Source: an uncultured Acidobacteriota bacterium (GTDB lineage: Bacteria; Acidobacteriota; Terriglobia; Terriglobales; Acidobacteriaceae). From it: a DNA stretch of 42,958 nucleotides. Below are positions 13,478-36,246 of this stretch, one piece after another. The notes beneath the pieces are model-generated. The model had not been told where the DNA came from. It did not search any database and saw only the letters and a list, made by a program, of their open reading frames with translations. The stretch's first letter is position 1; every line of letters starts with the position of its first letter. The translations under genes were made by a program, and so were the position numbers. Location of the stretch: the NCBI GenBank assembly GCA_903873705.1, contig CAIQPK010000056.1, positions 1-42,958 on the forward strand. Reading direction: 5' to 3'.

Positions 13478-15118
13478 ATGAAGACGGAAACGGAAAACAT
13501 GAATCTGAATGATGGAGACCGTGGCGCTGCGGAGCTGCGTATGGATCGCCGCGAGTTGATGAAGTTTGGGGCGGGCGCGGTTGGCCTGGCCGCCATGGCG
13601 GTACAACCTGCGCAGGGCCAGAGCCCGATTGCCCAGGCCGCGGAGGCACGGCGCGGACAGGCTGAAAAGGCCCCCCACTCGATGCGCGAGCCGGGAGAGA
13701 TTGCTCCCTTCACCGGACCGGGCTACAAGAACACGTTCAAGCGACTGGGCAACAACGGGCCGATGGACGATGCGACGGCGCAGATTGTGAAGTTTGCGGC
13801 CGAATATACCGAGGCCAAGGTGACCGCTTCGGCGGAGCGGTGGTTTAACCGCACGATGCTGGACTCACTTTCCGCGTTGATCGCCGGGTTCGAGCTGGAC
13901 GAGCCGCGCATCACCGCCCGCATCGCCAAGAAGTACTACCCCGCGGGCGAAGAGAAGTGCACGATCCTGGGTTACGGCGTCACCACGACCCCGGAACATG
14001 CTGCGCTGGCAAACAGCGTCCTGATCCGCGAAACGGACTTCAACGACAACGTCAACGCCGGCAACCACGTCAGCACGCTGATTCCCGCCGCGCTCTCGAT
14101 GGGTGAAGCGCTGCATAAGTCCGGCCGCGAGGTCATGGCCGCGGTTATCGCAGGCTACGAGCTTTCGGACTCGCCGGTGGGCCAGGACCCGGTTTGTTCG
14201 GCCGTCATGGCGGGCAAGCTGATGGGCCTCGACGAAGACCGGATGGCTAACGCGATTTCGATGGCACTGACGCCGCACGTGGCTCTGAACAAGGGCGTCG
14301 GAGCGATGTCGATGTGGAAGAACGTGCGCGAGTCCGAGCCTGTGAAGTGCGGAGTTTGGGGAGCCATCATGGCGCGGGAAGGCATGACGGGCCCGCCGCA
14401 GCCGTTCGAAGGGCGTGGCTCTTACTGGGCTTACCAGAGCGCCGGCCGCCCCGGCAACGGCATGGGACGCCCGTTCAAGCTGCCCGCGCGCGAAGACGCG
14501 ATGGTCATCGAGTGGAACCACTGGTTCAAGCGTCGTCCGTCAGAAGCCAACACCCAGGGCATGCTGCTTATCATGCCGGATATTCGGGCGTGGGTTAAGC
14601 CGGAAGAGGTTGAGTCGATGAACTGGCAGACCTCGTATGCCAACTGGGAAGAAACCTGCGATGCGCCGAAGTGGGACCCGCTCAATCGCCAGACGGCCGA
14701 TCACAGCTTCCCGTACATCTGCGTTCGCGCGTTCCTGGACGGCGACATTTACATCGACTCGTATACCGAAGCCAAGTTCATGGATCCGCAGGCACGCGGG
14801 CTGATGAATCGCTTCACCGTTCAGCCGGTCAACGGCTTCGGCGGCAACGGCGCAGGCCGATTGACGATCGTCAAGAAGTCTGGCGAGAAGAAGGAATGGG
14901 ATACCTATGACGGCATCCGCAACCCGACCATGCAGCAGTACAAGCCGATGGACGACGAGGAGCTCAAGGCGAAGTTCTGGAAGGTGTGCGAGTACCAGAA
15001 GGTGACACCCGCACAACGCGACCAGGCCTACAAGGTGTGGACCAACATCAGCCAGCTGAAAGATTTTGCTGACGCGATGAAGGTGATGGCGAAGTTCGGC
15101 CAGCCAAAGCCGCTGTAA
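13478..15118 (+). CDS. Tat-exported MmgE/PrpD family protein, copy 1
   Basis: 546 residues with a twin-arginine leader (DRRELMKFGAGAVGLAAMA, Arg 24-25) and a mature MmgE/PrpD domain, the superfamily of 2-methylcitrate dehydratase and cis-aconitate decarboxylase. Matches include DFNDNVNAGNHVSTLIPAAL, where Asp 187 and His 197 are ten residues apart as are Asp93/His103 of cis-aconitate decarboxylase, MSMWKNVR (Lys 281), GMTGPPQPFEG and FKRRPSEANTQ (Lys 351). The C-terminus AKFGQPKPL is shared by all three copies in this window. The reaction and substrate are unknown; export to the periplasm is unusual because characterised PrpD enzymes are cytoplasmic. It stands alone: a strong terminator follows directly and no small partner gene is present. 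Confidence 0.85.
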   Translation: MKTETENMNLNDGDRGAAELRMDRRELMKFGAGAVGLAAMAVQPAQGQSPIAQAAEARRGQAEKAPHSMREPGEIAPFTGPGYKNTFKRLGNNGPMDDATAQIVKFAAEYTEAKVTASAERWFNRTMLDSLSALIAGFELDEPRITARIAKKYYPAGEEKCTILGYGVTTTPEHAALANSVLIRETDFNDNVNAGNHVSTLIPAALSMGEALHKSGREVMAAVIAGYELSDSPVGQDPVCSAVMAGKLMGLDEDRMANAISMALTPHVALNKGVGAMSMWKNVRESEPVKCGVWGAIMAREGMTGPPQPFEGRGSYWAYQSAGRPGNGMGRPFKLPAREDAMVIEWNHWFKRRPSEANTQGMLLIMPDIRAWVKPEEVESMNWQTSYANWEETCDAPKWDPLNRQTADHSFPYICVRAFLDGDIYIDSYTEAKFMDPQARGLMNRFTVQPVNGFGGNGAGRLTIVKKSGEKKEWDTYDGIRNPTMQQYKPMDDEELKAKFWKVCEYQKVTPAQRDQAYKVWTNISQLKDFADAMKVMAKFGQPKPL

Positions 15119-26415: not shown

Positions 26416-28020
26416 ATGGAATCACAGAAAGACCTGCGTGACGAAAAACAGTGTGAGCCGGAAGTCCCCTCCCCAGGTCGCCGCGACCTGATGAGAATGG
26501 GTGCCGGTGCCTTTGCCCTGGCTATGACCGGTGGACTTGCTGGTGCACAGGAAGGCGGACGACGTGGGCCCCAGGCGCCGGCAGCGCCTCCGGGACAGGC
26601 GCCTCCGACTGAGTGGCGGCCGCACACCGGACCGGGCTATTACACCTACACGGCCAATCGTGAGGACAACAACGGGCCGATGGACGATACGACGGCCCAG
26701 ATCGTGAAGTACGTTCACGGCTTCGGCTCGGCGGACATGACGCCCGGGGCGATCAAGGCCACCAACCGGACGATGCTGGACTCGATGGCTGCGACCGTTG
26801 CCGGCTTCGAGGAGAAGGCGGTCCGAATCTGCGCGCGGACGGCGATGCTGTCGCCGGCGGGCAAGTGGAAGTCGACCGGGTTTGGTTACGGCATCGAGAC
26901 GACGCCGGAGCTGGGGGCGTTCGTCAACTCGGCCATGGTGCGCATGGTGGACTTCAACGACACACCGCACAACAGCAACCTGATTCCCGCCGCGCTGGCG
27001 ATCGGCGAGGCACTGCACTGCACTGGTCGCCAAGTGATGGAAGCCGTCGCGATCGGGTACGAGATTATGGGCGTTCCCGGGGCGGGCGAGTCGGTTGCAC
27101 CGGCTATGGCTGCAGGCAAGCTGATGGGCCTGAGCGAGGACCAGCTGGGCAACGCCGTCACGCTGGCGCTGACGCCGCACATCGCCCTGAACAAGGGCGT
27201 GGGCGCGATGTCGATGTGGAAGGGCACGCGCTCGGCTGAGGCGATCAAGTGCGGCGTGTGGGCGGCGATCCTGGCCAAGCAGGGGATGACTGGACCACCG
27301 CAGCCGTTCGAAGGCCGCGGCGGACTCTGGTATACGCAGAACCGCATGGGACGGCCGTTCAAGCTGCCCGAGCAGGCCAAGCTGCAGATCGAACGGATGG
27401 TGAACAAGCGCTTCCCTTCCGACCAGATGACGCAGCAGACGCTGGGCATGATGCCGCAGATTCGGCAGTGGGTCGGCGATCCGGAGTCGATTGACAACAT
27501 CGAGTACTACATGACGTTCGGCGACTGGGAAGAAGTGGGCGACAACGCCAAGTTCGACCCCCACAACCGCGATACGGCCGATCACAGCATCGCTTACGTA
27601 ATTGCGCGCAACCTGATCTCCGGCGAAAGCTATCTGGATGCGTTTGAGGATGCGAAGCTGCCGTATAACGATCCGCCGGTGCGGGCGCTGATGAACAAGA
27701 TCACGCTGAGCCCGGTGAACGAGTGGCGCGGTAACGGAACGGCTCGCATCGTCATCAAGAAAAAGAATGGCGATACGAAGTACTGGGACACCCACGACGG
27801 CAGCCGCGATACGGAAGACATGTCGAAGTTCCCGCAGATGTCGGACGAAGACATCATGGCGAAGTTCCGGCGCGTTTGCGCCTATCGCAAGGTTGCGCAG
27901 GCGCAGAGCGAGCAGGCCCTGAAGTACTGGTGGGACCTCTCGTCGGTGCAGGACATTGCTGTTCCGATGAAGCAGTTTGCGAAGTTCGGACAGCCGGCAC
28001 CGCTGCAGGTTGTGGTCTAA
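26416..28020 (+). CDS. Tat-exported MmgE/PrpD family protein, copy 2
   Basis: 534 residues with a twin-arginine leader (GRRDLMRMGAGAFALAM, Arg 22-23) and a cleavage region near AGAQEGG. The mature part aligns along its length with copies 1 and 3: DNNGPMDDTTAQIVK, NRTMLDSMAATVAGFEE, GYGIETTPELGAFVN, ALTPHIALNKGVGAMSMWK, GMTGPPQPFEGRGGLW, FDPHNRDTADHS and the end AKFGQPAPL. Unlike the others, the active-site segment is four residues shorter (DFNDTPHNSNLIPAAL), so the His aligned with His103 of cis-aconitate decarboxylase is missing or replaced by His 185, only six after Asp 179. Function unknown. Its small exported partner starts 33 bases downstream and both share one terminator. Confidence 0.85.
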   Translation: MESQKDLRDEKQCEPEVPSPGRRDLMRMGAGAFALAMTGGLAGAQEGGRRGPQAPAAPPGQAPPTEWRPHTGPGYYTYTANREDNNGPMDDTTAQIVKYVHGFGSADMTPGAIKATNRTMLDSMAATVAGFEEKAVRICARTAMLSPAGKWKSTGFGYGIETTPELGAFVNSAMVRMVDFNDTPHNSNLIPAALAIGEALHCTGRQVMEAVAIGYEIMGVPGAGESVAPAMAAGKLMGLSEDQLGNAVTLALTPHIALNKGVGAMSMWKGTRSAEAIKCGVWAAILAKQGMTGPPQPFEGRGGLWYTQNRMGRPFKLPEQAKLQIERMVNKRFPSDQMTQQTLGMMPQIRQWVGDPESIDNIEYYMTFGDWEEVGDNAKFDPHNRDTADHSIAYVIARNLISGESYLDAFEDAKLPYNDPPVRALMNKITLSPVNEWRGNGTARIVIKKKNGDTKYWDTHDGSRDTEDMSKFPQMSDEDIMAKFRRVCAYRKVAQAQSEQALKYWWDLSSVQDIAVPMKQFAKFGQPAPLQVVV

Positions 28021-28053
28021 CCCATCAACGCCACTGGCGAAGGAGATTTGCTT

Positions 28054-28410
28054 ATGAAGAAGCTTGTATTGGCAGCCATGGCGGCGCTAACGTTGGGAGC
28101 CTTTGCGGCTCCGGCGCTGGCGGCGACCGAAACCGTGACGGGTAAAGTGGTATCGCTTTCCTGTTACTTCCAGACCAACAAGAACGCCGGCGTGCGCGAA
28201 GAGGTGTGCTTCAACGCGACCGTCAAGTATGAAGGCAATCCGGTTGGCATTGTGACTGCCGATGGCAAGGTTTACCAGCTTGCGGGGGGCGTTCTGGGCG
28301 TGAACAATGCCAAGATGGTTCCTTACGGCGGCAAGACGGTGACCGTTACGGGCGAGGTCTGGGAGAAGGCCGGAATGATGATGTTGAAGGCTGACGATCT
28401 GAAGCAGTAA
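28054..28410 (+). CDS. Small exported partner of PrpD-like copy 2
   Basis: 118 residues. A clear Sec signal peptide (MKKLVLAAMAALTLGAFAAPALA, cut before ATE) is followed by a compact beta-rich domain that looks OB-like: ETVTGKVVSLSCYFQTN, KYEGNPVGIVTADGKVYQLA, NAKMVPYGGKTVTVTGEVW and GMMMLKADDLK. Two Cys (in SLSCYF and EEVCFN) could form a disulphide or bind a cofactor. ATG 28054 has AAGGAG eight bases upstream; the earlier TTG at 28048 is not needed. The protein at 34236-34598 is a clear paralogue in the same position behind copy 3. It resembles small exported proteins of unknown role common in Acidobacteria and related phyla. Confidence 0.82.
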   Translation: MKKLVLAAMAALTLGAFAAPALAATETVTGKVVSLSCYFQTNKNAGVREEVCFNATVKYEGNPVGIVTADGKVYQLAGGVLGVNNAKMVPYGGKTVTVTGEVWEKAGMMMLKADDLKQ

Positions 28411-28423
28411 GCGGCCGGTGTCC

Positions 28424-28456
28424 GCAAAGCCCGCGACGCACCGTCGCGGGCTTTGC
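28424..28456 (+). terminator. Terminator of the PrpD-like copy 2 operon
   Basis: Perfect 15-base stem (GCAAAGCCCGCGACG with its complement), loop CAC, followed by TGTTTGTG. It begins 14 bases after the small-partner stop. Confidence 0.8.
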
Positions 28457-28523
28457 TGTTTGTGCATCGTGGTGGTTTGATGGGCATCAAAGTTGGGTAT
28501 CCGATTTCTTGTTGAGGAGCTTT

Positions 28524-29003
28524 ATGTCTACTGAGGCGTTGTTGACGAGTGGTGTGGTGGGTTCGTGGAAGATTGTGATGGGGCGGCTGGATAAGACCAT
28601 CGGGCGGCTGACCGAGGCGCAGTTGCAGGAGCGCGTGGCGCCGGGGAAGAACCGGCGGCTGTACCTGCTGGGACATCTGACGGCGGTGCATGACCGGATG
28701 CTGCCGCTGCTGGGTTTGGGCGAGCGGCTTTATCCGGAGATCGATGAGGCTTATGTGACGAATCCGGATGGCGCGCTGGCTGATCCGGTGTCAGTGGACG
28801 AGTTGAAGGCGATGTGGACGGATGTGAATGCGAAGCTGACGGCGGCGGTGGAGAAGCTGTCGGCTGAGGAGTGGCTGGAGAAGCATACGCAGGTGAGCGA
28901 TGAGGACTTTGCCAAGGACCCGTCGCGGAATCGGCTGTCGGTGTTCCTGAGCCGGACGAACCATGCTTCGTTCCATGCGGGGCAGTTCGCGCTGGTGAAG
29001 TAG
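28524..29003 (+). CDS. DinB family protein
   Basis: 159-residue four-helix DinB/YfiT-like protein. The three metal-binding His of the family are visible: LGHLTAVHDRML in the second helix and RTNHASFHAGQFAL near the C-terminus. Such proteins include thiol S-transferases for bacillithiol or mycothiol and many of unknown activity. The ATG at 28524 has GAGGAG about five bases upstream. It is a single gene with a terminator about 100 bases downstream. A more precise activity cannot be given. Confidence 0.85.
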   Translation: MSTEALLTSGVVGSWKIVMGRLDKTIGRLTEAQLQERVAPGKNRRLYLLGHLTAVHDRMLPLLGLGERLYPEIDEAYVTNPDGALADPVSVDELKAMWTDVNAKLTAAVEKLSAEEWLEKHTQVSDEDFAKDPSRNRLSVFLSRTNHASFHAGQFALVK

Positions 29004-29027
29004 TGGCGCCGGGCTAAGGGTGGCCCC

Positions 29028-29094
29028 CAGACCGGGTCTGCAAAATCTCTGATTCTGTTGGTTGAGATCTGGGCAGACCGTCGGGCTAGTCTGC
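29028..29094. repeat. Two related inverted repeats, CAGACC...GTCTGCAAAA
   Basis: CAGAC-CGG-GTCTG at 29028-29040 and GCAGAC-(10)-GTCTGC at 29073-29094, both followed by CAAAA. A related CCCCAGACCCAATCTGCAT occurs at 12807-12825 after nth. They look like degenerate copies of one dispersed intergenic element. Confidence 0.4.
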
Positions 29095-29100
29095 AAAAGG

Positions 29101-29133
29101 AAGACCGCCTGCTGTGAGCAGGCGGTCTTTTTA
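29101..29133 (+). terminator. Rho-independent terminator of the DinB gene
   Basis: Perfect 13-base stem AAGACCGCCTGCT with its complement, loop GTG, then TTTTTAT. Confidence 0.85.
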
Positions 29134-29274
29134 TGTCTGCTTCCAGTTTAGTGGATTGAGGGGATATAACATGCCAATTTTCTTTGGGAGAATGGGCCTT
29201 GTTTTGTTGGCGTTGCAGGTTTTTGCGAGGGTTGGGGGGTTGACAGGTTTTGGGGATGCACGCGTGAACGGGGG

Positions 29275-30141
29275 TTAGCGGCGGTCCTTCATGCGGTAGT
29301 GGAGGCGAAGGAACTCGACACCCCAAAGCCATAGGATGTGGTCGGCGCGCGTAACTCCGGGTTCGTCGGTGAAGACGCGTATTTCCTCTTTCATAGAGGC
29401 GACGTAGCGCGCCCACAGCGTGCCGTCGCCAGCATGAACGGTGAAGTAGAAGCCAGGTTCTCCGAAGCGGCTCCCGCTCGACTGTACTGAAAGCGATCCG
29501 TCCGTGTTGGCGACGGCCTTCATGAGGACGATGGCGTTGCCGTTCGGGAGGGGAAAGACGACCTTGACGCAGGGGCTGGGGTGGCCCGGGATGCGGCAGA
29601 TGGAGTAGCTGCCCGCGTAGAGGACGTTGTCGGTTGAACGTAGCGTGCGGACCCATGCCGTCTGCACGATCTGGCCGGTCGCGGGGTCGCGCATGGGAAG
29701 GATGGTGCTGGTCATTCCACGGGCGCTGTCGAGCGGCGAGAGCGGTACGTTGAGTTGTTGCAGGCGACGGCTGAAGAGCAGACTGAGGGCGCGGCCGAAG
29801 GGGCGGAAGGCTGCGCACCATTGCGACCAGGAGTCGAGGTCGAATGCTGAGGTGTGTGCGTAGAAGTCTTTGACGGGTTGGGCGACGGCGGAGAGAGCGG
29901 GGTTATCGGCTTCAAGGGCGGTGAAGTCGGCAAGCAGGCCGCAGCCTGGAGCTTGAATGATGTCGAGACGATGGGCTTCGGCGTAGTGCTCGAAAAAGTG
30001 GCGGCCGATCTGGCGAGTTCCGCCGATGGGGCCGTCTAGCCACGGATGTTCGCTTAGTTTGAGGCGGCGCCCGGTGAGGCGAACCCACTGCTGAGTGGTC
30101 CAGTCGGTAAGATTGCCGCGCCGGTCTCCGAGCCAGATCAC
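29275..30141 (-). CDS. Uncharacterised protein, 288 residues
   Basis: I do not recognise a characterised family. The protein is soluble, with aromatic-rich stretches: LTDWTTQQWVRLTGRR, FDLDSWSQWCAAFRPFGRAL and FSRRLQQLNVPLSPLDSARG, then a beta-rich half (TAWVRTLRSTDNVLYAGSYS, CVKVVFPLPNGNAIVLMKAV, GFYFTVHAGDGTLWARY). It has no signal peptide or transmembrane segment. The GTG at 30141 is the first start in the frame but has no clear ribosome site. The length, single open frame and absence of a better frame on the other strand support a real gene. It is followed on the + strand by unrelated DinB sequences and stands alone. Confidence 0.65.
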   Translation of the reverse strand: MIWLGDRRGNLTDWTTQQWVRLTGRRLKLSEHPWLDGPIGGTRQIGRHFFEHYAEAHRLDIIQAPGCGLLADFTALEADNPALSAVAQPVKDFYAHTSAFDLDSWSQWCAAFRPFGRALSLLFSRRLQQLNVPLSPLDSARGMTSTILPMRDPATGQIVQTAWVRTLRSTDNVLYAGSYSICRIPGHPSPCVKVVFPLPNGNAIVLMKAVANTDGSLSVQSSGSRFGEPGFYFTVHAGDGTLWARYVASMKEEIRVFTDEPGVTRADHILWLWGVEFLRLHYRMKDRR

Positions 30142-30265
30142 GTGGCGATTATTGCATGTAGCGCGTGCGGGTGTGTCGGATTGGAGGAAGGCGAATTTGT
30201 CGTTCCGGCTTCGCCTGCACTCCGGCCTGCGGCAGCGAGGAAGCGCCTGCTGCGCGTTCGTTATT

Positions 30266-30285
30266 GGCCCAACTGAAGTTGGGCC
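30266..30285. repeat. Palindromic hairpin GGCCCAACT/AGTTGGGCC
   Basis: Perfect nine-base arms with a two-base loop in the gap between divergent-free genes ending at 30338 and starting at 30141. No T-run follows, so it is likely a dispersed intergenic palindrome rather than a strong terminator, though it could end transcription of the 30338-31300 gene. Confidence 0.5.
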
Positions 30286-30337
30286 CTGCCAAGAGATCTG
30301 AGGGTTCCTCGGGAATGGGCGCTGTAGGTTTCGCGGC

Positions 30338-31300
30338 TTATTTGGCAGTAGTCTTTTTCTTCGTAGACTTTGTGGGGATACCTGAGACGTCGGATTTGCC
30401 GATAGCGGCCTGGATGGCTTTGGTTGCCGGGGTAGGTGTTGTTGCCAGGGGCAGCGCCTTAGCGGTTGACGCGGGCTTGGTTTGCGACTGGGCGGTCATG
30501 TGTTCGGTGATGAGCTCGGTCTGGAAGCGGACGATGGTGTCGGGGTCGGTGATGACGGACTGGGTGTTGTTCTGGGCCTTGTAGCCGGCACCGCCGGCTT
30601 GTCCGTTGACGACGAAGGTGCCTTCTCCGCTGGCCGACCAGTTGGTGGAACCTTCGGCGGCGATGCGTCCGTCGGCGACGAAGCCCTTGGTGTGGCTGAT
30701 CTGGTGGGTGAAGGATTCGCCGATGACGAAGTGGGTGTTGTAGGCGGCGAGGTTGTACTTCTGGTCGGCCTCGAGCAGGGCCTTCTCGTGGACGCCGCCG
30801 GCCTGGCTCTTGTCCAGCGTGATGAGCATGGTGACCGACGGGTTGAGCGCCTTCTGCATGAGGATGTTGTTGAGCTCCGAGTCGTCGAAGCCAAACATGT
30901 TGAGGTAGAGCGAGATGGAGACGCGCGAGAGGATGTGTTTTAGGATGTCGTGCACGTCGTCGCGTCCGACGTAGAAGAGATGCACGTCTTTGCTGGCGTT
31001 GAGCGAGTAGGCGCCTTCCTTGGTGTACTGCGCAAGGTCGGCGAGGGTGAAGGTCTGGAGGTTTTGAGTGGGGTCGCCGAGGGTGTTGCTGGGGCTTTGG
31101 ACGGGCGGCGCGGCGTAGGCCTTCTGCACCGCAGCGGTTGTCGCCGGTTTGGCGGCTGGGGCAGAGACGGCTACGGCGGTGGGGTCGACGAAGGGGCGTG
31201 CGGGGACGCGGGGAGCGAAGGGCAAGGCGGAGGTGGTCGTCTTTGGCGTGGACTTTTTGGAGGTGGACTTCTTTGATGACGATGTCTTTTGGGCGGTCAT
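30338..31300 (-). CDS. Phospholipase D-like protein with Lys/Ser/Thr-rich tails
   Basis: 320 residues. The central part (about 95-255) is a PLD-like domain with one HKD motif, SHTKGFVADGRIAAEGSTNWS (His-x-Lys, Asp, then GSTNWS), preceded by DVHLFYVGRDDVHDILKHIL and MFGFDDSELNNILMQKAL. One HKD copy suggests a dimer, as in Nuc-type PLD nucleases. Both ends are low complexity and basic: TSSSKKSTSKKSTPKTTT at the N-terminus and IPTKSTKKKTTAK at the C-terminus, suited to nucleic acid or envelope binding. No signal peptide. The ATG at 31300 has AGGA seven bases upstream. Nuclease versus lipase activity cannot be decided. Confidence 0.8.
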   Translation of the reverse strand: MTAQKTSSSKKSTSKKSTPKTTTSALPFAPRVPARPFVDPTAVAVSAPAAKPATTAAVQKAYAAPPVQSPSNTLGDPTQNLQTFTLADLAQYTKEGAYSLNASKDVHLFYVGRDDVHDILKHILSRVSISLYLNMFGFDDSELNNILMQKALNPSVTMLITLDKSQAGGVHEKALLEADQKYNLAAYNTHFVIGESFTHQISHTKGFVADGRIAAEGSTNWSASGEGTFVVNGQAGGAGYKAQNNTQSVITDPDTIVRFQTELITEHMTAQSQTKPASTAKALPLATTPTPATKAIQAAIGKSDVSGIPTKSTKKKTTAK

Positions 31301-31550
31301 GCGGATTCCTCTCTCGGTCACTGCTTTCCGGGCTTCGCGTATTGCGCCACGATCACGCTGTGCTGGCTCGGCGATACAACGGGCTTTCAGCCCTCACATC
31401 GTCGGGTGACGTTTACATGGAGCTGCGCCCCATGTTGGTATAGCGGCGCGCTTTCAGCGCTTAGACCTCGATCCTTCCAGATTGAAGTTATCTTCGCTTG
31501 ACGGGTCGCAGAGTGAAGCTATCTTCGCTTGACGGATAGACCCAGCGCCA
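31301..31550. repeat. Intergenic hairpins and a 22-base direct repeat
   Basis: Small hairpins GGGCT-TTC-AGCCC (31381-31393) and GCGCT-TTC-AGCGC (31448-31460) share the loop TTC. After them TGAAGYTATCTTCGCTTGAC plus GG occurs twice, at 31483-31504 and 31514-31535 (one mismatch, period 31). Each copy also contains GAAG...CTTC, a possible short stem. The second copy lies 16 bases past the end of the methyltransferase gene. No gene is seen here. Confidence 0.65.
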
Positions 31551-32573
31551 CTAAGCGACGCCGGTCACCAGCGTTTCTGGGCTCATGGGAACGGGGGCTT
31601 GGGTGATGTTGGAGAAGCCGGCTTCGGTGTACATGGCCTTGAGTTGAGAGAAGGTGTAGGCGTTGCCGGCGGGAGTGCTGGTGAGCATGGTGAGGGCGAA
31701 GCCTACGGCGGAGGGAGGCGAGGTGCGGTCTTCGTCGGGGACGAACTCGAGGGTGGCGGCAATGCCGCCGGGGCGCAGCGCGGCGTGGACCTTGCGGAGG
31801 AGCGTGACGTTGGTGGCGTGGTCGAAGTGGTGGAGGAAGTTGGTGAGCAGCACGGCGTCGAAGCCGGTGCCGAAGGCGACGTCGAAGGCCGAGCCGGGGA
31901 GCTGGGTGAAGCGGTTGGCAACACCGGCGGCGGAGGCGTTGCGCTGGGCGACGTTGAGGACGTTGGGCCAGTCGACGGCAGTGATCTGCGCTGCGGGGTT
32001 CTGTTGGGCGAACGCGATGCCGAAGAGGCCGTGGCCGGCGGCGATATCGAGTACGCGGATGGGGCCGTTGAGGGAGGCGAGGACCATTTTCGCCATCTCC
32101 ACTGAAGTGATGCGGACGAGTGACGCCATGTTCTCGGCGAAGCTGACCCAGATGGGGTTATCGGGTTCGACGCTGCCCTGACCGGGGAGGGTGGTGGTGC
32201 CGGAGCGGACGATTTCGGGGAGGCGCTGGTAGACCTCGTGGATTTCCGGGTTGGCCATGAAGCGCGAAGCGGAGGCCAGGCAGGCGGGAGAGGCGGGGTC
32301 AAGGAAAACGGCGCTGGTGGGCGTGTGCTGGTAGCGGCCGTCGGCTTTCTGGAGAAGGCCGCAGACGACGAGGAAGTCGCAAAGGATGGCGATGCCGCGC
32401 TCGGAGGCCTGGCAGTGGGCGGCGATGGAGGCGACGTCGCCGGGGCCGGCGCCGACGGCGCGGAAGAGGTCGAGCTCGATGGCGGTGTTGAGCGCGGCGG
32501 TCTGCTGGTGCGCGTTCATGAGGGCGAAGACGAGCGCGGGGTTGGGTGCCTGGGAGGGAGAGGTGGGTTGCAT
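31551..32573 (-). CDS. SAM-dependent O-methyltransferase, winged-helix dimerisation type
   Basis: 340 residues. The N-terminal part (about 10-110) is a winged-helix dimerisation domain (ALNTAIELDLFRAVG, CQASERGIAILCDFLVVCGLL). The C-terminal class I methyltransferase domain carries motif I VLDIAAGHGLFGIAFA, an acidic motif II ITAVDWPNVL, and DAVLLTNFLHHFDHA. This architecture is that of plant-type and antibiotic O-methyltransferases such as hydroxyneurosporene, acetylserotonin and polyketide enzymes. The natural substrate cannot be inferred, since no biosynthetic cluster is adjacent. ATG at 32573 (MQPTSPSQ); it is divergent from the ATPase gene. Confidence 0.88.
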   Translation of the reverse strand: MQPTSPSQAPNPALVFALMNAHQQTAALNTAIELDLFRAVGAGPGDVASIAAHCQASERGIAILCDFLVVCGLLQKADGRYQHTPTSAVFLDPASPACLASASRFMANPEIHEVYQRLPEIVRSGTTTLPGQGSVEPDNPIWVSFAENMASLVRITSVEMAKMVLASLNGPIRVLDIAAGHGLFGIAFAQQNPAAQITAVDWPNVLNVAQRNASAAGVANRFTQLPGSAFDVAFGTGFDAVLLTNFLHHFDHATNVTLLRKVHAALRPGGIAATLEFVPDEDRTSPPSAVGFALTMLTSTPAGNAYTFSQLKAMYTEAGFSNITQAPVPMSPETLVTGVA

Positions 32574-32657
32574 GTGCCGTCCTTATGAGGGTGGTTTAGT
32601 AGCCCGCGGGAAGTTTAGCAGGTGCGGATCAGGCTGCCGAGGTTCGTGGGAGAATGG

Positions 32658-34130
32658 GTGGTCGCCGAGCGACACGGGGAGGTCGCCATCAAAGTTCGAC
32701 TGCGCCTTGGAGAGCTACTGATTCGGTCGAAGCTGGCGACGACGGAGCAGGTGTCGGACGCGCTGGCACGGCAAAGCGCCGACGGTGGACGGCTGGGCGA
32801 AACACTGGTCTCCATGGGTGTGCTGCGGCGCGAGGAGCTGGATGCGTTCGTGAACCGGATACCGGTGGAGCCGTCGGATATTGAGGCAACGGGTATATCC
32901 GCGAACGAGCTGCTGGCCGGGTTAATGAAGCAGATTTATACGAGCAAGCTGGAGTCTGTGCGGGAGTTTACGGTGGCGAGCAAGCTGCCGCTCTCGATCG
33001 TACTGGGGCTGGTGCGGATGGCGGTGGGACGAAAGCTACTGGTGGCGACGGGCACCACGACTTCCTATAACGCCCAGAATACGACCTACATGCTGACCGA
33101 AGAAGGACGTCGCTGGACGGTGGATGCGCTGGACCAGCTGCGATATGCAGGACCGGCACCGGTGACGCTGACCGCGTACAGCGAGCAGGTGGGGCTGCAG
33201 AAGTTGACCAACGACTCGGTGACGCGGGAACGGATTCGGGAGGCGTTTGGGGGCATGGTGTTCGACGAGGAGGTGTTGGAGCAGGTGGGGCCGGCGCTGA
33301 ACTCGGGGCGGGCGATCCTGCTGTACGGGCCGCCGGGGAATGGCAAGACTTCCGTCGCGCTGGCGATGGCGAGCCTCTTCAGCGACGTGATCTATGTGCC
33401 GTATGCGGTGACGGTGGATGGACAGATCATCGTGGTGTTCGATCCGACCATCCATGCGACGGTGGATGATGACGAGTTGCTGGCACCGGTATCGCATGAC
33501 GACCTGGACCGGCGATGGGTGCCGTGCAAGAGACCCTTTGTCGTGGCCGGCGGCGAGCTGACGCTGGAGACGGTCGACCTGAGTTATGACGCGAGCGCAC
33601 ACTTCTATAACGCGCCCATGCCGATGAAGGCGACCGGCGGGTGCTTTGTGGTGGATGACTTTGGCCGGCAGAAGGTGAGTCCGTTGCAGCTGCTGAACCG
33701 GTGGATTGTGCCGCTGGAGAACCGGTTCGACTTCCTGAAGTTGCATACGGGCAAGTCGTTCAGCGTGCCGTTCGATGAGCTGGTGATCTTCTCGACGAAC
33801 CTTGATCCGGAGAGCTTCATCGATGTGGCGTTTCTGCGGCGTCTGCCTTACAAGATCCGGATTGGAGCGCCCAGCCTGAGGGAGTACAAGACTATCTTCA
33901 TGCGCGAGTGCGCGCCGCATGGGCTGACGCTTTCGGACGCGGTCTTTGACGCGATCGTGAAGGCCATCACCGAAGAGCTCGGGATGGCGCTGGCCGGGTT
34001 TCAACCGAAGTTTATTGTGGAACAGGTGCTGGTGATGTGCCGGTTCCTGGGGGTTCCGGCAAGGCTGGAGGAGCCGTATGTGGCGGCAGCGATGCGGAAC
34101 CTGAGCGTGAAGCGGGTGGGCCAGGGTTGA
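32658..34130 (+). CDS. AAA+ ATPase with an N-terminal MshEN/GspE-N domain
   Basis: 490 residues. An N-terminal domain of the MshEN/T2SS-E type (RLGELLIRSKLATTEQVSDA and RLGETLVSMGVLRREEL, the paired RLGxxL motifs that bind c-di-GMP in such domains) is followed by a linker and a AAA+ module: Walker A YGPPGNGKTSVA, Walker B GGCFVVDDFG, sensor-like VIFSTNLDP and a lid region. It is not a secretion ATPase: the GspE signature boxes are missing. The role is unknown; a c-di-GMP-gated chaperone or remodeller is inferred. Start choice is uncertain: the GTG at 32658 has GGGAG five bases upstream, yet the homologous domain begins about ten codons later (see findings). Confidence 0.8.
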   Translation: MVAERHGEVAIKVRLRLGELLIRSKLATTEQVSDALARQSADGGRLGETLVSMGVLRREELDAFVNRIPVEPSDIEATGISANELLAGLMKQIYTSKLESVREFTVASKLPLSIVLGLVRMAVGRKLLVATGTTTSYNAQNTTYMLTEEGRRWTVDALDQLRYAGPAPVTLTAYSEQVGLQKLTNDSVTRERIREAFGGMVFDEEVLEQVGPALNSGRAILLYGPPGNGKTSVALAMASLFSDVIYVPYAVTVDGQIIVVFDPTIHATVDDDELLAPVSHDDLDRRWVPCKRPFVVAGGELTLETVDLSYDASAHFYNAPMPMKATGGCFVVDDFGRQKVSPLQLLNRWIVPLENRFDFLKLHTGKSFSVPFDELVIFSTNLDPESFIDVAFLRRLPYKIRIGAPSLREYKTIFMRECAPHGLTLSDAVFDAIVKAITEELGMALAGFQPKFIVEQVLVMCRFLGVPARLEEPYVAAAMRNLSVKRVGQG

Positions 34131-34235
34131 GCGCGATGGATCGGCTGCGGAAGGGCCATAGCCTGCCTCCGATGCTTTGGCGGTCAGGCGGCTAGTTGGT
34201 CCGATGACCGTCTGCTGGAGTTGGTGGGGCCGCTG

Positions 34236-34598
34236 CTATTTGCCAACCACGGTAGCGCTGTCCGCCGAGATGACCATCATGCCGTGAATCTCAGAGACTT
34301 CGCCGGTGACCGTGACGGTCTGGCCGAGCAACTCGGAGATTTTTGCATTGTTGTTCGCGGTGAGGCCACCCATCACCTGATACACCTTGCCGTCGGCGGT
34401 GACGATGCCCGCGGGGTTTCCTTCCCACTTCACGGACGCCCTCTGCTCGGCGAGGCGTTGGTCGAGGCCACGCCCGGGACGGTCTTTGTTGGTGGCGTAG
34501 TAGGCAAGGCCAACGACGCGGCCGGTTATGGTCTGGGTGGTCGCCTGCGCGCTGTCGGAGCCAAGCTCGGCGAAGAAATTGATGACGGAAGCTAACAT
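34236..34598 (-). CDS. Small partner of PrpD-like copy 3
   Basis: 120 residues, paralogous to the protein at 28054-28410: TQTITGRVVGLAYYATNKD, KWEGNPAGIVTADGKVYQVM, NNNAKISELLGQTVTVTGEV and GMMVISADSATVV. It lies 22 bases after PrpD-like copy 3, in the same order as the copy 2 pair. Differences: the two Cys of the other copy are absent, an insert rich in Arg/Asp/Gln (RPGRGLDQRLAEQRAS) replaces part of the loop, and the N-terminus (MLASVINFFAELGSDSAQA) is only weakly hydrophobic with no positive n-region, so export is doubtful. The ATG at 34598 has AAAGGA five bases upstream; the longer frame to 34787 runs through copy 3 and is spurious. Confidence 0.78.
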   Translation of the reverse strand: MLASVINFFAELGSDSAQATTQTITGRVVGLAYYATNKDRPGRGLDQRLAEQRASVKWEGNPAGIVTADGKVYQVMGGLTANNNAKISELLGQTVTVTGEVSEIHGMMVISADSATVVGK

Positions 34599-34620
34599 GG
34601 AGGTCCTTTCGTGCCGGTTG

Positions 34621-36246
34621 CTATAGAGGTTTGGGCTGTCCGAACTTTGCGAGCATGACGACTGCTTCCTTGAAATCCTTGAGGCTGCCGATATCTGACC
34701 AGACCTTGTAGGCCTGGTCTCGCTGGGTGTTGGCGACGTGCCGGTAGGCACTGACGCGGTAGAACTTTTCCTTGATCTGTTCCGCATTCATGGACGGGTA
34801 GTCTTCGGTCTGAGGAGCGCGAATGCCGCGATAGGCGTCCCAGTACTTGCTTTCACCTGACTTCTTGGTGATCGTCATTCGGCCGGAGCCGAGGCTGATC
34901 CAACCATTGAGGACCGGTGAGACGGTGGTCTTATCCATGAGCGCGCGGGCGACTGGGTCCATGAATTTCTCTTCGGTGAAGGAGTCGAGGTAAATGTCTC
35001 CGTCGATGAGTGCGCGCGCAATGATGTAGGGCAGGCTGTGGTCCGCCGTTTCCCGATTGCGGGGGTCCCACTTGGGGGCATCGCAAATTTCTTCCCAGTC
35101 GTGGTTCATGGGCGTGTCCCAGTGGATGGAGGCGATCTCCTCAGGCTTGACCCAGGAACGAATCTCCGGCATCATGACCAAGATTTCCTGTGAACCTGCC
35201 TCGGCCGGGCGGCGCTTGAACCAGTTGCGCTCCATGGCGAGGCCTACCGGCTTGAGAGGCAGGGTGAACTCTCGGCCGATGCCGTTTCCGCTGGTTCCGA
35301 TGCCCTGGGTAGACCATAGGCCACCTCTGCCTTCGAAAGGCTGCGGTGGGCCGGTCATGCCGGCGTGGGCCATCATGGCTGCCCAGACACCGCACTTCGC
35401 GGACTCGGCGCTGCGCACGCCCTTCCACATGGACATGGCGCCGACGCCTTTGTTGAGCGCGACGTGAGGCGTGAGAGCGATGGTGAGAGCGTTGGCCAGG
35501 CGATCTTCGTCGAGGCCCATGAGTCTGCCGGCGACCATGGCCGCTACGACCGACTCGCCACCGGCCGGCGCTGATGCGAGCTCGTAGCCGATGCTGATGG
35601 CCTGCCTGACCTGTGCGCCGGTGCAGTGGAAGGCTTCGCCGATGGCCATCGCCGCGGGGATGAGCGTGCTGACGTGATTGCCGGTGTCGACGCTGTCGTT
35701 GAAGTCGACGCAGCGGATGAGGACGCCGTTGGCAAAGGTGGCCAGCTCGGGCGTGGTTTCGACGCCGTAACCGAGCACGGTGCACTTATATTTTCCGGCG
35801 GGCGAGAGGGTGGCGAGGTTTGCCGCGATGCGGACGGGCTCCTCTTCGAAGCTGGCGAAGATGGCAGCAAGCGAGTCGACCATGGTGAGGTTGAACTGGC
35901 TTATGGCGGCGGGAGTCATGTCCGACTCCTTGAAACCGTGGACCCACTTCACGATTTTTTGCGTGGTGTCGTCCATCGGGCCGTTCTGGCCGAGGCGGTT
36001 GTAGTCGTTCTTATAGCCGGTGCCGGTGAAGGGCGCGACGTCGCCGGGATTGCGCATGGCGTAGGGAGGTGGCGGTCCGGGAGGGCGCGGCGGCGCCTGC
36101 TGGGCCGCAGCTTTGCCTGCGGGAAGGGACGAGACGAGCGCGCCGGCGCCCATGAGCTTCATGAGGTCGCGCCGCTCGGGGCTGGATAAGGTTTCGCGAT
36201 CGCTTGCTGCACTGTGGTTTTCCGGGTCTTGATCTTTGGGATGCAT
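34621..36246 (-). CDS. Tat-exported MmgE/PrpD family protein, copy 3
   Basis: 541 residues with a twin-arginine leader (ERRDLMKLMGAGALVSSLP, Arg 25-26), a Pro-rich segment (APPRPPGPPPPY) and the MmgE/PrpD domain. DFNDSVDTGNHVSTLIPAAM keeps Asp 181 and His 191 at the ten-residue spacing of cis-aconitate decarboxylase; MSMWKGVRS and FKRRPAEAGSQ give the two Lys positions. The ending AKFGQPKPL is identical to copy 1, and GQNGPMDDTTQKIVKWVHG is closest to copy 2. AAGGAAGGG lies five bases before the ATG. Together with the small gene behind it, it repeats the copy 2 module in inverted orientation. Substrate unknown. Confidence 0.85.
   Translation of the reverse strand: MHPKDQDPENHSAASDRETLSSPERRDLMKLMGAGALVSSLPAGKAAAQQAPPRPPGPPPPYAMRNPGDVAPFTGTGYKNDYNRLGQNGPMDDTTQKIVKWVHGFKESDMTPAAISQFNLTMVDSLAAIFASFEEEPVRIAANLATLSPAGKYKCTVLGYGVETTPELATFANGVLIRCVDFNDSVDTGNHVSTLIPAAMAIGEAFHCTGAQVRQAISIGYELASAPAGGESVVAAMVAGRLMGLDEDRLANALTIALTPHVALNKGVGAMSMWKGVRSAESAKCGVWAAMMAHAGMTGPPQPFEGRGGLWSTQGIGTSGNGIGREFTLPLKPVGLAMERNWFKRRPAEAGSQEILVMMPEIRSWVKPEEIASIHWDTPMNHDWEEICDAPKWDPRNRETADHSLPYIIARALIDGDIYLDSFTEEKFMDPVARALMDKTTVSPVLNGWISLGSGRMTITKKSGESKYWDAYRGIRAPQTEDYPSMNAEQIKEKFYRVSAYRHVANTQRDQAYKVWSDIGSLKDFKEAVVMLAKFGQPKPL

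Follow-up and report, generated by a model that had tools for sequence, protein, structure and literature searches.

Why should the gene for an MmgE/PrpD-like protein be followed twice, on opposite strands of one stretch of DNA, by the same kind of small gene? The question is raised by a window of 42,958 nucleotides (the whole stretch analysed) from an uncultured bacterium of the Acidobacteriaceae; it is contig C56 (CAIQPK010000056.1) of a genome of 4.18 Mb in 94 contigs (assembly GCA_903873705.1). A first-pass annotation had described the arrangement and proposed that the two genes duplicated together, were retained together and encode exported proteins that cooperate. The observation in the window is confirmed, and it is bigger than first claimed. 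Sequence comparison indicates a real, lineage-specific, co-duplicated operon pair. We favor, with moderate confidence, the reading that this operon encodes an MmgE/PrpD-fold enzyme with a signal for twin-arginine translocation (Tat) together with a dedicated accessory subunit resembling the oligonucleotide/oligosaccharide-binding (OB) fold, and that the subunit would be co-exported with the enzyme where it is leaderless.

On the plus strand, PrpD copy 2 (26416..28020, 534 amino acids) is separated by 33 bases (28021..28053), which hold the ribosome-site-like GAAGGAG, from a small OB-like gene (28054..28410, 118 amino acids). Its product, which we call S-type, has, by hydropathy, a signal peptide of the kind used by the general secretory (Sec) pathway and two of the three cysteines of its family. 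On the minus strand, PrpD copy 3 (34621..36246, 541 amino acids) is followed after 22 bases (34599..34620), holding GAAAGGA, by a second small gene (34236..34598, 120 amino acids); this H-type product has neither a recognizable signal peptide nor any cysteine. All these frames lie where the first-pass annotation had placed them, with the spacing that it gave, and the two small proteins do share the motifs GNP[VA]GIVTADGKVYQ and TVTVTGEV, being 55% identical (tblastn, expectation value (E) 1.4e-24). A terminator-like hairpin of 15 pairs that matches the consensus (28424..28456, plus strand) stands 3' of the copy 2 small gene, as expected of a two-gene operon. Its stem is by far the longest among the three terminator-like sites of this region, where shuffled sequence would be expected to give 2.0, and no terminator-like hairpin was found 3' of the copy 3 small gene. 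Copy 1 (13478..15118, plus strand, 546 amino acids), the third Tat-signal PrpD of the window, has no small gene 3' of it.

How general is the pairing within the genome? A tblastn search with copy 2 gave 18 rows. They comprise 13 intact MmgE/PrpD paralogues, the one on C41 appearing as two separate hits, a C50 fragment and three more remote relatives of generic type (C7, C20, C72). All 13 carry a Tat signal and are open frames, and three of them lie in the window. Behind seven of the 13 a small gene lies 3' on the same strand, starting after 18 (C3), 19 (C44), 21 (C92), 22 (copy 3 and C16), 33 (copy 2) or 44 bases (C48b). These seven small genes are open frames as well, and GAAAGGA precedes each of the five H-type genes (copy 3, C3, C44, C92, C16). 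An eighth small gene, on C50, is truncated by the contig end; it starts 25 bases behind a PrpD frame that keeps the Tat signal and the C-terminal tail and lacks the middle (L036 9001-9646, C50:67000-67645), which may reflect a true deletion or an artifact of assembly. A profile search of the genome found these eight small genes, and because all eight sit directly 3' of a PrpD-family frame in 4.18 Mb, the module goes beyond chance. The other six intact paralogues, copy 1 included, are unpaired, and no decayed small gene was found beside them or beside the PrpD of the congener G123 (best tblastn E 0.12).

Did the two genes spread as one unit? Trees built from the seven small proteins and from their seven PrpDs are identical in unrooted topology. 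Each contains several poorly supported inner branches (down to 44/0 and 51/52); the split of S-type (copy 2, C48b) from H-type and the grouping of C3 with C44 are well supported in both. Across the seven pairs, identities between small proteins correlate with those between PrpDs (r 0.90, as high in 6 of 5040 relabelings), and they do so within the five H-type pairs (r 0.58, as high in 5 of 120). This correlated divergence, with the agreement of the seven-row trees, supports the proposal that PrpD and small gene duplicated as one unit, notwithstanding a 16-row PrpD tree that is weakly discordant for three pairs. In that larger tree, 11 paralogues cluster (support 93/99), with C6, C14 and G123 outside, and the paired copy 2 and C48b branch outside the other nine (96/99). 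Unpaired copies can be sisters of paired ones, as are copy 1 of C16 (100/100) and C48a of C44 (97/97), and a single clade of paired PrpDs is rejected (approximately unbiased test, p 8e-63). The tree requires at least five changes in the presence of the small gene and does not give their direction; the simplest reading is a single early gain followed by losses. Retention as a unit, also proposed at first, thus applies to the seven paired copies of the 11-member clade and breaks down for the four without a small gene, among which are the two supported sisters just named. Where the pair persists, both genes look constrained by purifying selection: by simple Nei-Gojobori counts, nonsynonymous divergence (dN) between the five H-type small genes is 0.16-0.35 against a synonymous divergence (dS) of 0.80-1.75, and for their PrpDs dN is 0.25-0.37 against a dS from 0.84 to saturated (one comparison saturated).

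What kind of enzyme is the larger partner? MmgE/PrpD proteins have been described as cytoplasmic or mitochondrial lyases and epimerases. Pfam places all three window copies in this family, with N- and C-terminal domain scores of 131.7/44.7 (copy 1), 137.9/62.3 (copy 2) and 134.5/57.1 bits (copy 3) against a cut-off of 32.1; for PF03972 and PF19305, E is 4.2e-40 and 6.6e-17 in copy 2 and 4.8e-39 and 2.6e-15 in copy 3. The nearest proteins by profile are iminodisuccinate epimerase and cis-aconitate decarboxylase (PDB 2hp3, E 9.3e-34 over positions 96-495). A true 2-methylcitrate dehydratase was considered and rejected, as copy 2 scores 64.9, 37 and 23.6 bits against NCBIfam equivalog cut-offs of 950, 575 and 458, and copies 1 and 3 likewise fall far below. 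The active-site set of bsIRG1 is given as D91, H102, Y146, H151, K200, K266 and C271 in PMC7347537. Its Asp, His and two Lys (D179, H185, K269 and K331 in copy 2) are invariant in all 13 paralogues; the full set is not, and an identity as iminodisuccinate epimerase or cis-aconitate decarboxylase was rejected accordingly. The proteins are therefore best filed, from their sequences, in the MmgE/PrpD family and under no named enzyme. Both Pfam domains and the four invariant residues are shared with the known enzymes of the family, namely iminodisuccinate epimerase (2hp3/2hp0), cis-aconitate decarboxylase (6r6u, 6r6t, 7br9) and 2-methylcitrate dehydratase (1szq, 5mvi). Unlike these, the paralogues have a Tat-type signal, some 90 residues N-terminal to the matched region, an FGQPKPL-like end and a paired small gene. 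The C-terminus reads FGQPKPL in seven of the 13 and a near variant in four more, with C6 and C14 diverging further. All 13 keep the twin arginine, with a hydrophobic stretch behind it (9-residue hydropathy 1.57-2.32), and are probably Tat substrates. A monomer model of the PrpD protein (predicted local distance difference test (pLDDT) 46.5) was too low for use.

Is the small protein tied to PrpD elsewhere? With a profile built from the seven small proteins, matches at E 1e-5 came from 16 other genomes among 297 of the order and 62 others among 395 of the phylum, all far weaker than the seven complete copies of the genome itself; in the genus, one of 27 other genomes matched weakly (0.0026) at a cut of E 0.01. 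A contig scan with the small-protein alignment (two strict patterns, the window's own genome possibly excluded) added one distant Bryobacterales locus, L037, to 76 distinct order and phylum matches, giving 77 outside loci. No PrpD relative was found by tblastn with 16 PrpD proteins in the flanks of these loci (0/77), a search that covered about 1.5 to 6 kb per side and less at contig ends, so that farther or cut-off neighbors would be missed. The control loci matched, three of four being self matches, and generic PrpDs are detectable, copy 2 matching L125 at 1e-48 and L123 at 7e-36. On the flanks searched, pairing with PrpD does not hold up as something that the small family shows in general. 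The first-pass annotation had suggested looking for the pair at conserved spacing across genomes, and had named homologs lying mostly away from PrpD genes, together with the absence of a predicted interface, as what would count against a partnership. Within the genome, the pair recurs at all eight small genes (gaps of 18-44 bases for the intact pairs and 25 for C50), and in this derived clade none lies away from PrpD; the distant outside loci show, within the flanks searched, the opposite on both counts. At three of them (L107, L108 and L109, at ~6000; from three genomes, all of a single other family), a three-cysteine relative stands beside the same two genes, one of which has a CxxCH motif.

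The PrpD subfamily is itself narrowly distributed. Among 27 other congeners, its profile matched one (G123) at E 1e-60 and, elsewhere, G307 and G333 at 1e-80 (198 others) and G109 at 1e-60 (396 others, with G123 again), three to seven candidates being scored per genome in these larger searches; G307, G333 and G109 match from profile position 85 or 90 onward. A PrpD search of plasmids gave 187 records; the matches listed show 24-33% identity and do not include the first ~80 residues of the protein. As far as titles and the beginnings of abstracts tell, the papers listed on MmgE, PrpD and cis-aconitate decarboxylase, and those naming MmgE together with Acidobacteria, do not describe the pair. 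Searches for "mmge prpd" with Acidobacteria or periplasm (the slash form being unsearchable) and for DUF5818, the family closest to the small protein, found no paper in the collection searched.

The fold and history of the small protein bear on what it may do. The window proteins resemble DUF5818 (PF19135) with E 0.0022 and 0.0024 (18.0 and 17.8 bits, under the gathering score of 27); C48b reaches 7.8e-5, and the outside relative L037 lies above the cut-off. An AlphaFold prediction from three sequences gave a best of five models with pLDDT 68.1 and a predicted template modeling score of 0.63 (pLDDT of the other four, 40.6-45.1), whose strand and helix order matches the OB fold, a five-strand barrel with a helix between strands 3 and 4. 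OB proteins (RPA, SSB, LysRS) lead the best 50 of 488 Foldseek matches (best E 0.021, none below 0.001), among which YgiW ranks 47; on this modeling, the small protein is likely OB-like. Four weak matches to PDB sequences were led by the MspA porin (E 0.016). As a mycobacterial MspA porin, the protein of 28054-28410 has an NCBIfam E of 3.9e-5 and, with 23.3 bits, stays far below the cut-off of 280; MspA is not among the best 50 of 488 Foldseek rows, and we take the match as chance.

The outside relatives carry three cysteines (C..CxxxC) in 75 of all 77 loci, 59 also with a histidine between. Of the two exceptions, L131 matches in part and lies close to the end of its contig, and in L069 the first cysteine fell outside the tested stretch. 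Despite the profile similarity to this exported family, none of the seven own copies has the full set. The S-type proteins keep two of the cysteines and a Sec-type signal peptide, as judged by hydropathy. The H-type proteins start with ML and have no hydrophobic core and none of the three family cysteines, with one or two cysteines elsewhere in C3, C44 and C92. Five of seven small proteins thus appear to have dropped their signal peptide, although the Tat signal of the neighboring PrpD has been kept. By this crude hydropathy measure, the only one applied to the small proteins, the value over 12 residues before the domain is 0.96-1.63 in H-type, 2.28 in S-type and 2.07-3.00 in 15 of 19 outside rows. 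Those 19 rows were drawn from the 77 loci: the gene picker skipped two of 20 larger loci, one of four further loci passed the filter, and truncating the rows at 135 residues took away or shifted the N-terminus in L098, L108 and L045, and L102 lacks the anchor motif. Against these 19, the seven own proteins form one clade (99/98), and their genes go back to a single origin in a Sec-exported, three-cysteine family. The first-pass view that both proteins are exported fits 28054-28410, with its Sec-type signal by hydropathy, and lacks sequence support for 34236-34598, where no signal is recognizable.

How might the small protein, then, serve the enzyme? It is plausible that the two work together, and we envision the small protein as an accessory subunit that attaches to its PrpD-like neighbor. 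DUF35 OB-fold proteins, which partner steroid hydratase and aldolase complexes in the cytoplasm and act on coenzyme A thioesters, offer a descriptive parallel, a small OB-fold protein accompanying a degradative enzyme; here the enzyme has a Tat signal. In S-type pairs, the small protein would reach the periplasm by Sec and join the enzyme there. Provided that partner and enzyme have the same place of work, the H-type protein needs another way out, and co-export with a folded Tat substrate is the obvious one: it would bind the folded enzyme in the cytoplasm and pass through Tat with it. Tat "hitchhiker" complexes are known, for example E. coli PaoABC (PMC4273604), where a signal-bearing partner is likewise encoded beside a signal-less one. 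The five of seven small proteins in which crude hydropathy shows no hydrophobic core may share the hallmark of a hitchhiker, having no signal of its own; unlike in PaoABC, the partner here is OB-like, two of seven pairs have a Sec-type signal on it, and co-export is a proposal.

Several observations weigh against this picture of an accessory subunit. Four paralogues of the 11-member clade lack the small gene, and the distant family was never seen beside PrpD genes (0 of 77 loci). The 16-row PrpD tree orders C92, copy 3 and C16 differently, at weak branches. No residues in PrpD track small-gene presence (three columns against a permutation mean of 5.0), and a mark of small-gene loss in PrpD was sought and not seen. 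In 9-residue windows, the hydropathy gap narrows to at most 1.94 in H-type and at least 1.96 in intact outside rows, and the Tat stretches of the PrpDs overlap this boundary. The clade also has a shortened active-site loop that lacks the Tyr and His, and a replaced active-site Cys (read from the alignment, with roles as given in PMC7347537), which leaves it doubtful that the PrpDs are active. At two paralogues, candidate neighbors are not confirmed by Pfam, the C6 receptor candidate having only a CarboxypepD_reg domain and no barrel, and the C48a propeller candidate matching no Pfam family.

Part of this evidence would fit an operon neighbor with a separate job, one that serves the same pathway on its own by binding or sensing a ligand and makes no physical contact with PrpD. 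The occurrence of the wider family away from PrpD genes, the paralogues that manage without a small gene and the missing residue signature all fit such a protein. Loss of the signal peptide in H-type would, conversely, strand an independent periplasmic protein, and the three cysteines kept in nearly all outside loci are altered precisely in the PrpD-linked copies; we consider this explanation possible, if somewhat unlikely. Less probable is a role in escorting the Tat substrate while it is still in the cytoplasm. Redox-enzyme maturation chaperones bind Tat signal peptides and delay export until folding is complete, and five signal-less small proteins beside Tat-signal partners would suit that role; the Sec-type signal peptides of copy 2 and C48b, and of most outside relatives examined, do not, and to our knowledge the known Tat escort chaperones are not OB-like. 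That the small gene is a mere passenger, duplicating as the neighbor of PrpD and gradually disappearing, might account for its absence behind four clade members and its persistence behind the internally deleted PrpD of C50, and is nevertheless very doubtful given dN/dS of 0.13-0.32 between H-type small genes, open frames in all seven intact copies and the GAAAGGA common to the H-type genes.

Returning to the accessory subunit, its origin can be sketched tentatively: a Sec-exported, three-cysteine OB-like protein may have been captured once behind an exported PrpD and have lost its cysteine site, after which signal-peptide loss in a sub-clade would have turned it into a Tat hitchhiker. We think this sequence of events possible and would not call it probable.

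Where, and on what, might the enzyme act? A receptor cluster is represented within 9 kb of seven of the 13 paralogues and two propeller clusters within 9 kb of eight, one kind or the other being present at nine; neither has a member that close to the three window copies or C16. Pfam identifies outer membrane barrels at C44, C41, C92, C48b and C14 and NHL or other propeller models at C6, C92, C48b, C3 and C54, in a scan that covered all candidates except the C54 receptor piece (65 residues) and the C44 and C14 propellers. The congener G123 has the gene order receptor, PrpD, NHL propeller. Because many paralogues outside the window have receptors and beta-propeller proteins close by, and not on the basis of the window copies, the neighborhood suggests periplasmic processing of imported compounds, in which the enzyme would probably act on a substrate taken up by TonB-type receptors.

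Other genes stand near individual paralogues. A thiamine pyrophosphate enzyme near C92 (L029 2391-4328) and a glucose-methanol-choline oxidoreductase near C14 (L035 5409-7649) both have Tat-like starts, and may be exported forms of enzymes that normally work in the cytoplasm. Behind the C48b pair lie two related glyoxalase-fold proteins with signal-like N-termini (L028 9455-11251), the first gene starting 42 bases 3' of the small gene.

An exported subfamily, expanded 13-fold and provided with a small partner of its own, would widen the known roles of the MmgE/PrpD fold. With S-type and H-type pairs in one genome, a change in the export route of the partner becomes a testable question. If the history sketched above is true, the change from Sec to Tat could be read from the paralogues of a single genome, and it would sit in a thirteen-member family of periplasmic enzymes.

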